Below, piece after piece: positions 47 through 3,870 of a stretch of 64,000 bases of DNA (position 1 is the first letter of the stretch; the number at the start of each line of letters is the position of its first letter). Position numbers and translations under genes: made by a program. Below the pieces are notes generated by a model. It saw only the letters and a list, made by a program, of their open reading frames with translations. It was not told where the DNA came from and ran no database searches. Origin of the DNA: Gammaproteobacteria bacterium. Its GTDB lineage: Bacteria; Pseudomonadota; Gammaproteobacteria; GCA-001735895. The DNA is taken from positions 1 to 64,000 of the forward strand of contig JACNJF010000084.1 in the NCBI GenBank assembly GCA_014382695.1. The letters are read 5' to 3'.

Positions 47-125
47 GCCTAACGCGAGTGTAAGGGGCTGGCGGTTTTTGCCGGTCCCAGCGACCGAAGG
101 GAGCAACTTGACACCCTTGTTATGT
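47..125 (-). other. attC recombination site of an integron cassette
   Basis: Read on the minus strand, the site runs from ACATAAC (R'' core, imperfect to RYYYAAC) to GTTAGGC (R' core, perfect to GTTRRRY). The segments next to the cores, AGGGTGTCAAG and CTTACACTCGC, pair as L''/L' arms, and the centre folds on itself through GCTGG/CCAGC. Length is about 79 bp. It lies directly after the stop of the 158-604 gene, so it is the attC of that cassette, with cassettes oriented to the minus strand. Confidence 0.8.
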
Positions 126-157: not shown

Positions 158-604
158 TTATATATACCATATTTTACTAATAATTTTACTTGCCATACGT
201 TCTGGGGAAACATATCCAAGCATCCCTAAACTAGCGTGGTATTTTTGGCATCTATATGGAAACAATCTAATACTCATGCAGCTATCTTTTGTCGATGATA
301 GAACCCTTGCTCTTTCTTCGTTGTGAAATACTCTAACACCAGTGTCATTACCAAATTTAAAAACTGCAAAAACTGTTGTTTTATACTCTCTATTAAAATC
401 ACCATCGTATACGTCAAGTAAGTCACTAGATACTTCTTGGTAACAAGATTTCTCATCTTCGCTTAGATTACGTAAAACCCCTTGAATATCTTCCTTTGCG
501 TCACCTTCAGTCAACTTAACGGGTTTTACAGTTAATACTCCGAACTTGAATAACAGATCGTTTTTAATTCGCCTGAATACATAAAACATATTGTAATCTA
601 CCAC
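158..604 (-). CDS. unknown cassette protein, third gene of a three-gene cassette
   Basis: A 148-residue protein that I do not recognise. It has no signal peptide or membrane segment, and mixed charged and beta-type composition. The start is GTG at 604, overlapping the end of the upstream gene by 7 bases; an ATG five codons later (589) is an alternative. The overlap suggests translational coupling with the PD-(D/E)XK-like gene upstream. An attC follows the stop within about 35 bases, so this is the last gene of the cassette. Codon use is clearly more AT-rich than the chromosome right of 3.8 kb, as usual for cassette genes. Confidence 0.6.
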   Translation of the reverse strand: MVDYNMFYVFRRIKNDLLFKFGVLTVKPVKLTEGDAKEDIQGVLRNLSEDEKSCYQEVSSDLLDVYDGDFNREYKTTVFAVFKFGNDTGVRVFHNEERARVLSSTKDSCMSIRLFPYRCQKYHASLGMLGYVSPERMASKIISKIWYI

Positions 605-1179
605 AATTTCATAACAGGATAATCAGGAAGGTCTTTATCTGGTGTATAGGAAAAAAGGATATATGCTTCATTTATATTCAATGGAATTTCCCAATTGTGG
701 TTGTTGACAAATTGATTCACCCTCTTGAAGGGAAGCTTAGGCTCATCAGTGAATAAAAGTAAAAATACAGCAGAGTAAGCATCGCTATATACCGCTTCTA
801 GTGATTTTGATTTTTTATTGATAATGTTTTGAATTTCATCCAACGTGTTATCCTTATCCCAACTTACAACCTCAGAAAAATAACTCCTCTTTCCTTGAAT
901 TTGAGAATTTATTGCATCTTCATTTACAAGCTCAGTAAGCTCTAAAGCTATTTTCTCTCCTAAACTATTAAATGCCATAATATCAGGTGGATCATCTCCA
1001 TTTTTTATATTTCTAAACTTTCTACCTTCTAACGAACGTAAACCCTCAAAAAATCTAATAGCTATTGATAATTCTTTAGTTTTTTCATACTTTCTGGGAT
1101 AGTGAAAAAATGATGCATGCTTTCTTATTTGCTTTTTTACGTCCTCTATTAATTCAGTAAAAACTTTTTTCTGGCACAT
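598..1179 (-). CDS. PD-(D/E)XK-like putative nuclease in integron cassette
   Basis: A 193-residue soluble protein, middle gene of the cassette, starting 4 bases after the 1184-1588 stop and overlapping the next gene by 7 bases. Around residues 60-85 it has 'DDPPDI', a short spacer, then a hydrophobic strand ending 'IALELTEL'. This is the layout of PD-(D/E)XK nuclease cores (PD, then a strand with ExK), but the usual lysine is threonine here, as in some uncharacterised branches of the fold. The rest is helical and charged. A nuclease role is inferred from this motif only; no family was assigned. Integron cassettes often carry defence or toxin genes, which fits but does not prove a role. Confidence 0.5.
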   Translation of the reverse strand: MCQKKVFTELIEDVKKQIRKHASFFHYPRKYEKTKELSIAIRFFEGLRSLEGRKFRNIKNGDDPPDIMAFNSLGEKIALELTELVNEDAINSQIQGKRSYFSEVVSWDKDNTLDEIQNIINKKSKSLEAVYSDAYSAVFLLLFTDEPKLPFKRVNQFVNNHNWEIPLNINEAYILFSYTPDKDLPDYPVMKLW

Positions 1180-1183
1180 AATA

Positions 1184-1588
1184 TTAAGAAAAATATAAAA
1201 ACCCCGCTAACATAATAACAGCGGCGACAAAAGCTAATGTGATTCTCTCTTTCCGATCCTTCAATTTTTGAGCTGATGCTTCTTTCTGCGCATCCGAGGC
1301 ATGCTTCAAAATCCAGCTCCTTGCTTCTTCTAAAGTTAATTGGTCTTTTGATACATTAATATCGTTGTAAACGTTATTGAATGTGCCAACATCAAAACGA
1401 TTTTCAAGAACTTCACTTTTGGCGACGACCCAAAATCCTATTCTAAATGCATGAGGGCCTAACAGCTTATTTGATTCAGAATAACGCATAGAAGAATTTT
1501 TAGAGTAATAGTTGCTTTCAGGAAAAAGATCTTTCACTTCGTAAAAGAGTGATCTTATATTGTCTGATGTCACTATTTTAGATTCCAT
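1184..1588 (-). CDS. unknown tail-anchored membrane protein, first gene of cassette
   Basis: A 134-residue protein, unrecognised. The first ~110 residues are soluble and charged, with a helical stretch rich in K, E and A before the membrane ('SDAQKEASAQKLKDRKER'). A single C-terminal hydrophobic helix ('ITLAFVAAVIMLAGFLYF') ends the protein, so it is probably anchored in the inner membrane with its bulk in the cytoplasm. It starts about 65 bases downstream of the attC core on the minus strand and is followed after 4 bases by the PD-(D/E)XK-like gene. The layout suggests one transcript of three genes, whose products may act together at the membrane. Confidence 0.6.
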   Translation of the reverse strand: MESKIVTSDNIRSLFYEVKDLFPESNYYSKNSSMRYSESNKLLGPHAFRIGFWVVAKSEVLENRFDVGTFNNVYNDINVSKDQLTLEEARSWILKHASDAQKEASAQKLKDRKERITLAFVAAVIMLAGFLYFS

Positions 1589-1654: not shown

Positions 1655-1742
1655 ACATAACGTCGCAAATCACTGGGAAATTTAGCCGTAGCGACGAAGG
1701 AGCGTAGGTTAAATTTTTCCATGTGAATTTGCCTTGTTATGT
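1655..1742 (-). other. attC recombination site of an integron cassette
   Basis: On the minus strand the 88-bp site runs ACATAAC ... GTTATGT. Next to the cores, AGGCAAATTCAC and AGTGATTTGCG pair as L''/L' arms with an offset base. The centre is a long imperfect palindrome (GGAAAAATTTAACC...GGCTAAATTTCC). This is the typical extrahelical-base hairpin of attC sites. It separates the three-gene cassette (left) from the two-gene cassette (right). Confidence 0.85.
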
Positions 1743-1782: not shown

Positions 1783-2661
1783 TCAAAGATTTCTATCATC
1801 TTCGAACGCCCGCAACCTAAAGGCATGTTGAGCATTAAAACCTTCAAAATTGAAACTGATAACATCATAAGGAATACCATTCTGAGAAGATTCATAAGAA
1901 TCTATATATCCAATACCCGTATATTCACCATTATTTATTTGAGAATCGCCACCATTTATGGCATCAGTAGGATCTATTGCCGAGCATGATGAAACCGTTA
2001 CGGTTGCTTTAATAATGCTATCTGTAATGTGCTCGTTAATAATTCCGTCAAACTGGCAACCATTTGTGTCATAGCCATTAAATGAATTAGTTATGAATGA
2101 TAAATTTATATCTTGTTTGTACCAACTAAGGTTTACTCTCTCGACACATCTTCCATTCACTATTAAACCGATGCAACTAACAGCAAAACCAAATTCCATA
2201 AAATAATTAGAAGGGGCGTTACTGAATTTGTATTTAAAATTTAGTGGTTGAGCGAAAGGGTTTAATATCTCACTTAAAGAAATCTGATTTTCGGGAAATT
2301 TTCGGAAGCTACCAAAATAAGGATTAGAGCCTCCCATATCATATGGAAACCCATACTCGTTATAAGTAACTTTAAAGTCATTACTGTCACTTTCATATGT
2401 ACCGCTTAGAGAATAATTTCTGCTTGACCCCAATAAATAAAAATCATTATTGTTATCAACAAATACTTTGCCACTTCTTAAGTTATCACTGCTGTTTTGA
2501 AAGCTAACATAGTAAATACCAGAAGTAGGTGGAATAGGAGTAGATGAAGGTATTGGACTGTTTTGATCTGCATTTGTATCAGAATCTCTCGCGCCACCAC
2601 ATGAAGTTAATGTAAATAAGGAGGTAGCAAAAAGTACATATATTGAAAATATCCTAATCAT
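1783..2661 (-). CDS. secreted lipoprotein, unknown function, cassette-borne
   Basis: The ORF track begins at 2760, but the natural start is the ATG at 2661. There AAGGAA sits 8 bases upstream and the protein opens with a lipoprotein signal ('MIRIFSIYVLFATSLFTLTSCGG', lipobox LTSC) that the longer version would bury. The mature ~270-residue protein begins with a Pro/Ser/Thr linker and is then rich in Tyr, Asn, Ser and Asp in beta-type pattern, with three more Cys. I recognise no family. The start is one base beyond the stop of the 2663-3367 gene, so the two are coupled. It is the last gene of its cassette, followed by attC at 1742. Confidence 0.65.
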   Translation of the reverse strand: MIRIFSIYVLFATSLFTLTSCGGARDSDTNADQNSPIPSSTPIPPTSGIYYVSFQNSSDNLRSGKVFVDNNNDFYLLGSSRNYSLSGTYESDSNDFKVTYNEYGFPYDMGGSNPYFGSFRKFPENQISLSEILNPFAQPLNFKYKFSNAPSNYFMEFGFAVSCIGLIVNGRCVERVNLSWYKQDINLSFITNSFNGYDTNGCQFDGIINEHITDSIIKATVTVSSCSAIDPTDAINGGDSQINNGEYTGIGYIDSYESSQNGIPYDVISFNFEGFNAQHAFRLRAFEDDRNL

Positions 2662-2662
2662 G

Positions 2663-3367
2663 TTATTTATTCCTTGAATCATTATATTCTTTATAAGAGC
2701 AATTATCGTCCCATTCATGCTGAAGGTGATTTGGTAATAATACAACCAAGTTATTCTCACGTAGCTCGCTGAGCGAGCGACTTATTTGCATCATCTGGTA
2801 ACAGCTATGAAGCGCATTGTATGTGCTCATAAAAATCAAACTCTCATCCATATATTCTAGCAATTCATCGTATCGATTTTTATACTTTTCCTGGGAATGA
2901 AAATTGCCGGAATACAACAAAGTATCAATCAGATTTTTGTTAGTTTTAATGGGTCCGGGATAATCTTTACACATTAAAAGTGCGTCCCTATCCAATACTT
3001 CTTTCCAGTTATCTCTCATGTGTCGATTAAATTTTCTGACATGAATATTATTAACGTTCTCCTCCATATAACTACAAACGGAATATATGCTCATACATTC
3101 GCTTTTCATATAAAAAAGCCTTAGAGACCACACGAATGATGCAACATCAGAAATGGATATTGATTGACCCGCACACTCCCAGCGATTTCCGACAAGACGT
3201 CCACTAATATGAGAAAACATCTTTCCCTCTTTTAGAAGGCGATCTGCATGCCTGATAAATTCGCTTTTTACATACCAGAAACTTTCAGGCTTTCCATCTT
3301 CCGGACTTACCTTTGGAAATACAGTACCTGAAATGTCTATAGGTGTTTGTCCATAATTCAAACGCAT
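2663..3367 (-). CDS. unknown cassette protein coupled to a lipoprotein
   Basis: A 234-residue soluble protein with no signal peptide or membrane helix and no recognised domain. It is Met-, Cys- and Tyr-rich with long helical stretches in the second half. It is the first gene of a two-gene cassette: the R' core (GTTATGT) of the cassette boundary is about 27 bases upstream on the minus strand, and the lipoprotein start follows its stop almost directly. Codon use is AT-rich like the other cassette genes. No function can be assigned. Confidence 0.6.
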   Translation of the reverse strand: MRLNYGQTPIDISGTVFPKVSPEDGKPESFWYVKSEFIRHADRLLKEGKMFSHISGRLVGNRWECAGQSISISDVASFVWSLRLFYMKSECMSIYSVCSYMEENVNNIHVRKFNRHMRDNWKEVLDRDALLMCKDYPGPIKTNKNLIDTLLYSGNFHSQEKYKNRYDELLEYMDESLIFMSTYNALHSCYQMMQISRSLSELRENNLVVLLPNHLQHEWDDNCSYKEYNDSRNK

Positions 3368-3393: not shown

Positions 3394-3456
3394 ACATAAC
3401 AGCGAATTCTACAGTTTCTCTGTTCACCGGGTTTTACGGAAACTGTAAAACCCGGT
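3394..3456 (-). other. cassette-array edge: R' core plus two competing hairpins
   Basis: On the minus strand GAATTCGCT-GTTATGT (3394-3408) has the form of an L'/R' integron core, but I find no matching R''/L'' partner to its right. It is therefore a truncated attC or part of an attI. Beside it are two perfect inverted repeats: TACAGTTTC/GAAACTGTA (3410-3418, 3439-3447) and ACCGGGTTTTAC/GTAAAACCCGGT (3426-3437, 3445-3456). They interleave and share bases, so only one can form at a time or they form a pseudoknot. Confidence 0.5.
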
Positions 3457-3588
3457 TTTGGATTGTTTAAAACTGATCCATATTGAACGGGCAATCAAGG
3501 CCAGCAATCGAATAGAGCGGATAGTTTGACGGTGGTAATAACCCGGAATCTGTTTCATTTTGTCCGGGCTTAATAATTGTTTTTCCAT
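3424..3588 (-). CDS. possible small protein (54 aa), doubtful
   Basis: Too short for the ORF track. The minus-strand ATG at 3588 opens 54 codons to a TGA at 3424-3426. The predicted product is basic with a hydrophobic middle ('RSIRLLALIARSIWISF') and a K/R-rich end. The only upstream AGGGA is too far for a good ribosome site. It ends inside the double hairpin at the cassette edge. It may be a remnant or a chance ORF. Confidence 0.2.
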   Translation of the reverse strand: MEKQLLSPDKMKQIPGYYHRQTIRSIRLLALIARSIWISFKQSKTGFYSFRKTR

Positions 3589-3818
3589 GTGTTTTTAGTA
3601 TCCCTGTGGAAAGGTAGTTAATTTTTATAATTTCCATCAGATTACCGCTTTATATATGAGCAGGTCAATGGGGTATTGTTATCTGATCCTTATGGGCTGA
3701 TGAACCGCATTGCAAAATGCGGAATTGATTGCCCATCTGCTTATCTGTCATGGTCAGTTCTGGAGAGCTAAAACGGGTGTTAATCCTGTTTGCCTTGCTC
3801 CCCGCTGCAGCGACTGGC
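3457..3818. other. non-coding stretch between cassette array and chromosome genes
   Basis: About 360 bases, AT-rich, in which an integron integrase would be expected if the array were complete here. None of the tyrosine-recombinase motifs is present on either strand. One short inverted repeat CCCGGA/TCCGGG (around 3542-3567) was seen. The 62-codon ORFs listed here look like chance. Confidence 0.5.
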
Positions 3819-3836
3819 GTACCTGAAATCAGGTAC
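3819..3836. promoter_or_regulatory. perfect palindrome upstream of DUF1428 gene, likely operator
   Basis: GTACCTGA-AA-TCAGGTAC is a perfect inverted repeat with 8-base arms, ending 34 bases before the ATG of the DUF1428 gene. That is the region where RNA polymerase would bind, so a dimeric repressor site is likely. The regulator is not in the window. Confidence 0.4.
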
Positions 3837-3870
3837 ACTGACCTTTCTTTCACAAAAAGGGGGAGTTCGG

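Follow-up and report, generated by a model that had tools for sequence, protein, structure and literature searches.

Shedu (SduA) is a defence system in which a single gene encodes a PD-(D/E)XK nuclease. Integron cassettes with anti-phage activity are reportedly the subject of studies by Darracq, Getz and Kieffer, all from 2025, and most integron cassettes encode proteins without an assigned fold. As cited in PMC12444791, the anti-phage cassettes are small genes of unassigned function in attC arrays, frequently with a single gene to a cassette. Of the V. cholerae cassettes that lack a predicted function, about 20% are reportedly anti-phage (PMC12444791, citing Darracq et al. 2025). Within the PD-(D/E)XK superfamily, the DUF1626, DUF506 and DUF790 families have a migrated lysine: they keep the core topology and the D of motif II, read (D/E)x(non-K) in motif III and bear a basic side chain on the helix of motif IV (PMC1913061). 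In DUF1626, motif III often has a Thr and the lysine has migrated to the motif IV helix within the same topology; this family is also described with coiled-coil similarity (PMC1913061).

The main gene of a three-gene integron cassette at the start of the window (the whole 64,000-nucleotide stretch of DNA analysed here) can be placed against these systems, as a member of an uncatalogued PD-(D/E)XK family with an apparently relocated active-site lysine. The family resembles DUF1626, DUF506 and DUF790 in its predicted core topology, the D of motif II, a motif III without K and a basic residue in the helix of motif IV, and DUF1626 also in the Thr of motif III; however, it has no Pfam match to any of the three, and it is a single small domain, unlike DUF1626 with its coiled-coil similarity. 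It shares the small size, lack of assigned function and attC setting of the integron anti-phage genes, but PADLOC does not match it and its activity here is predicted only. Shedu is used as a working analogy for the window protein, although neither Pfam nor PADLOC links the latter to SduA.

The cassette lies on the minus strand at about 53-1660, some 1608 bp between the predicted G/TT recombination points of two attC sites. The downstream boundary is the cassette's own attC (50-122, minus strand, 73 nt), and the upstream boundary is the attC of the upstream cassette (1658-1739, minus strand, 82 nt). Both are attC-like hairpin sites and begin on the minus strand with CATAACAAGG (2 found vs 0.21 expected). 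The attC at 1658-1739 folds much better than shuffled sequences (z -4.2), and the one at 50-122, folded with DNA parameters, is not distinct from shuffles. Inspection of the sequence finds the arms of both sites asymmetric, one side having an additional base; this places the array direction on the minus strand, matching the genes. The three genes are flanked by attC sites in array orientation and read toward their own attC. No attC was found between them, and the earlier note's description of three tightly coupled genes in one cassette holds, all three ORFs being at the positions it gave. The array region has a GC content of 34.5%, against 52.3% in the rest of the window. Window base 1 is also base 1 of its contig (C130, 68 kb, in a draft genome of 238 contigs), and the array is therefore truncated on that side. 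No integrase was found at the proximal side of the array (3400-3870). At the start of contig C134 (L013, 3-353), an IntI-like protein (175 bits against a cut-off of 265 bits) is truncated by the end of the contig, so that only its C-terminal third is present; it is not joined to the window array.

The first gene of the cassette (1184-1588, minus strand, ATG start) encodes a 134-aa protein, the second (598-1179, minus strand, ATG start) a 193-aa predicted PD-(D/E)XK nuclease, and the third (158-604, minus strand, GTG start) a 148-aa protein. A 4-nt gap separates the first two and the third overlaps the stop of the nuclease gene by 7 nt. All three ORF lengths are beyond chance expectation in a shuffled cassette: in shuffled cassettes of the same composition, an ORF of at least 134 aa arose in 0.15% of trials and one of at least 148 aa in 0 of 2000. 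No good promoter was found ahead of the first gene. At the extreme C-terminus of the 134-aa protein, a basic stretch is followed by a single hydrophobic 19-mer (KD 2.27, windows 113-116; segment about 113-134). This is consistent with a tail anchor, and the protein does look tail-anchored, as first proposed.

Searched by itself, the 193-aa protein has no above-threshold match in Pfam, PADLOC, NCBIfam or PHROGs, and it found nothing in a scan of genome contigs or by tblastn of the plasmid and phage collections. A genome search yielded one distant relative, a two-row profile a second, integron-borne one, and a three-row profile 35 loci, including both earlier relatives. In total 36 relatives were collected. 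In an alignment of 33 sequences, eight columns are invariant (E36, P65, D66, E80, E83, L84, V85 and K123), and the columns of E36, P65, D66, E80 and K123 are recovered in a second alignment. None of the 33 members matches a PADLOC model, and none matches a Pfam family above its cut-off, DUF1626 included. Weak Pfam matches to Sulf_coat_C (E 0.023, below its cut-off) and DUF7079 (3 of 33 members, best E 0.011) were rejected.

These columns correspond to the predicted PD-(D/E)XK active site as E36 (motif I), P65-D66 (motif II), E80-L-T82 (motif III) and K123 (motif IV helix). The Asp of motif II and the acidic residue of motif III, by which members of the superfamily are recognised, are thus invariant in all 33 sequences. 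Motif III reads ExT, and from the alignment and an AlphaFold model its lysine seems to be relocated to the helix that follows, as the invariant K123. The model of the window protein (pLDDT 86.2, pTM 0.80) has a helix at 29-51, strands at 56-60, 67-70 and 76-83, a helix at 109-127, a strand at 137-144, a helix at 151-158 and a strand at 171-176, which as predicted is the secondary structure of a PD-(D/E)XK core. E36 is placed in the first helix, D66 in the second strand, E80 in the third strand and K123 in the following helix. A second model, of a Pseudomonas subflava relative (pLDDT 84.1), agrees with it.

Compared with the PDB, about 27 of the first 50 matches of the window model are PD-(D/E)XK nucleases by description, including NotI, EcoO109I, PspGI, NucS/EndoMS, EcoRV and RecB; those of the second model include EXO5, NotI, SfsA, YaeQ and LmuA. 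The best E-values for the two models are 0.017 and 0.016, TM-scores are low, and no match of either model reaches E 0.001. NucS/EndoMS, NotI, EcoO109I, SfsA and XisH are the best structural neighbours by fold, but at E 0.016 or worse and about 10-17% identity. Acetyl-CoA carboxylase domains, which turn up repeatedly in the Foldseek results, were set aside for want of a sequence motif that would support kinship. Weak as the individual structural matches are, the nuclease reading is well supported by the conserved motifs and the models together: a PD-(D/E)XK fold is very likely from the predicted structures, and catalysis is likely. The earlier note had called this protein PD-(D/E)XK-like, and the structure prediction that it proposed as a check gives a nuclease fold in two models, with a conserved, putative four-residue active site. 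Its motif wording needs amendment: the signature is better given as P65-D66...E80-x-T82 plus K123, and 'IALELTEL' is a motif III without the lysine.

The closest relative (L072, IMGVR_UViG_3300032273_000080) is 36% identical over 169 aa. There the family gene is a single-gene cassette in an array whose consecutive, mutually unrelated ORFs are separated by attC-like repeats of about 120 nt. The record is filed as viral, yet it reads as an integron cassette array over the 10.5-kb stretch read. Nine relatives are integron-borne (L072, L017, L018, L019, L020, L022, L023, L024 and L032), with both attCs seen for L072 and L017/L018 and at least one for the others. A first attC scan was too strict, and a second was noisy outside the window, where a shuffled G+C-rich locus gave 5 sites per 8 kb by chance. 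For this reason the attCs at L019, L020, L022-L024 and L032 were assessed visually, with less certainty than in the window, and those of L023 and L024 are clear on one side only. The integrons concerned belong to Burkholderiales, Pseudomonas, Methylococcales and Thiodiazotropha, with one superintegron-like array in addition. In the tree these members cluster across bacterial orders (5 label changes vs 8.0 in shuffles) and a Pseudomonas/Methylomicrobium pair is 72% identical, which together point to exchange of family members between integrons. The window protein itself is on a long branch and its exact placement is unsure.

Other members have different surroundings. In Methylococcaceae, two chromosomal positions recur, one beside an ABC transporter pair (L027/L030/L034 and L036/L042) and the other beside a predicted permease (L028/L037/L041), and neither is a defence island. 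In a Zhongshania and a Spongiibacteraceae MAG, a family member (L040, 3947-4570; L043, 3947-4573) follows HsdR of a type I restriction operon by 3-10 nt in both Spongiibacteraceae genomes, and may possibly be an accessory restriction subunit. The window cassette differs in having no HsdR, HsdM or HsdS, and the 193-aa protein is not a motor protein. In L040, a HipA-like gene comes next after the family member. In L050, a member follows a restriction-helicase-like gene. Two copies are decayed, one by a frameshift (L021, 3968-4576) and one by an internal in-frame TAG (L045, 3947-4534; the same locus as L002). The family is rare and patchy, with 3 of 369 gammaproteobacterial genomes positive, a count that takes in the genome of the window itself and a marginal match at L003 (E 0.0098) that was rejected as chance. 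One distant member was found in the plasmid collection (Microvirga) and none among the phage records.

The two partner genes behave differently from the nuclease. They are absent from all loci that carry the nuclease family, and relatives of the 134-aa and 148-aa proteins were found neither in the plasmid, phage and viral-contig collections nor in 185 gammaproteobacterial plus 399 proteobacterial genomes (584 draws from samples that may overlap). Marginal genome matches of the 148-aa protein (E 0.004-0.007) were rejected as chance. In the collections searched, the trio is thus not supported as a recurring system, though further copies may exist in unsampled arrays. Other integron arrays carry the nuclease gene with neither partner, so that elsewhere it evidently does not need them. 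The orphans are probably either optional accessories, for example in membrane tethering or control, or co-captured passengers.

The reading preferred here, which we rate at about even, is that the 193-aa protein is an integron-borne, restriction-like PD-(D/E)XK nuclease that acts alone on phage or plasmid DNA, the two neighbours being accessories or passengers. The working part of the cassette would be this protein, from an unnamed family of small PD-(D/E)XK proteins that is often found as a single-gene integron cassette. From the conservation and fold, we infer metal-dependent phosphodiester cleavage, in which E36, D66 and E80 would hold a divalent metal and K123, relocated from motif III to the following helix, would position the water that cuts DNA. 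With no methyltransferase partner, it would act alone against phage or plasmid DNA in a restriction-like way, and would recognise its target through a modification, the structure of the DNA or some activating signal instead of a self/non-self methyl mark. The most likely role, restriction of foreign DNA by this enzyme alone, is suggested by the occurrence of the family in integrons and beside restriction operons, by its patchy distribution and by the share of V. cholerae cassettes without predicted function that is reported as anti-phage. The weak structural scores, the lack of a PADLOC match, the fixed positions in Methylococcaceae and the lack of a good promoter count against it. While the cassette, the family, its conserved residues and the predicted fold are direct results, DNA as the substrate, like catalysis, is inferred, and a defence role of the cassette is plausible. 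These data do not make the cassette a new defence system; its predicted nuclease belongs to a family that is new and uncatalogued, while the superfamily and the type of mobile element are both known ones. The family is a good source of candidates for single-gene, methylation-independent restriction, and it offers specific point mutants that can be tested.

The conserved chromosomal positions in methanotrophs make a housekeeping or DNA-repair role the main rival. The nuclease would then act on the cell's own DNA, at mismatches, branches or damaged ends, in the manner of NucS or MmcB, and integrons would merely carry copies. The sites beside the ABC transporter pair and the predicted permease agree with this, and so does the list of weak structural matches, in which NucS/EndoMS, SfsA and MmcB-like proteins appear. 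However, the few hits among gammaproteobacterial genomes (the 3 of 369 counted above), the integron and restriction-operon settings and the two decayed copies, as in accessory genes, speak against it, and we consider this role doubtful.

Toxin-antitoxin cassettes are usual in large integrons, and the tight coupling of the three genes, like a HigA-like cassette on contig C25 of the same genome, could suggest an addiction module, in which the nuclease is a toxin neutralised by the 148-aa or 134-aa partner and the array is thereby stabilised. The gene has no partner in its closest relative or in the other integron arrays, so a dedicated antitoxin is not needed, and both candidates for that part are orphans; addiction is thus improbable.

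The lack of a lysine in motif III and the weak structural scores would also suit a non-catalytic protein of PD-(D/E)XK shape that binds DNA or protein. YaeQ, a match of the second model, is a relative by fold for which, to our knowledge, nuclease activity is not established. If there were no active site, however, the invariance of all four of E36, D66, E80 and K123 would be difficult to account for, and we rate this reading as very improbable.

A true three-component system, with the 134-aa protein as membrane-anchored sensor, the 193-aa nuclease as effector, the 148-aa protein as regulator and other copies outside the searched collections, would fit the 4-nt gap and 7-nt overlap in one shared cassette, the tail-anchor signature and the undersampling of cassette databases, but is highly improbable given that the trio never recurs, that the nuclease stands alone in other integrons, and that the partners lack relatives in the 584 proteobacterial genome draws and the plasmid, phage and viral collections. 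Remoter still is a self-contained three-part immune module derived from the wider family of single-gene nuclease cassettes, in which the tail-anchored sensor would recruit or release the methylation-independent nuclease on entry of phage or plasmid DNA and the 148-aa protein would control it. The earlier suggestion of a conserved three-gene system is therefore not borne out: nine integron-borne nuclease relatives lack the partners, the partners have no relatives anywhere searched, and homologues never occur together in that material, which is the outcome that the earlier note named as refuting. The PADLOC search that it proposed as a further check gives no match. A multi-gene cassette without recurrence should not be read as a system.

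Beyond the upstream attC, the next cassette (1783-3367, minus strand) apparently has two genes without an attC between them. One encodes a 234-aa protein, and the other, which overlaps the end of the first, a probable lipoprotein of about 290 aa (lipobox-like TLTSCGG). Neither has a significant family match; a prok_STING match of the 234-aa protein (E 0.05, 14 bits against a cut-off of 27 bits) was rejected. A fragment of an attC array is also present at the end of contig C25 (L071, 2851-3669), where one cassette encodes a HigA-like antitoxin and another a 145-aa protein. The same genome thus has attC cassettes on more than one contig.
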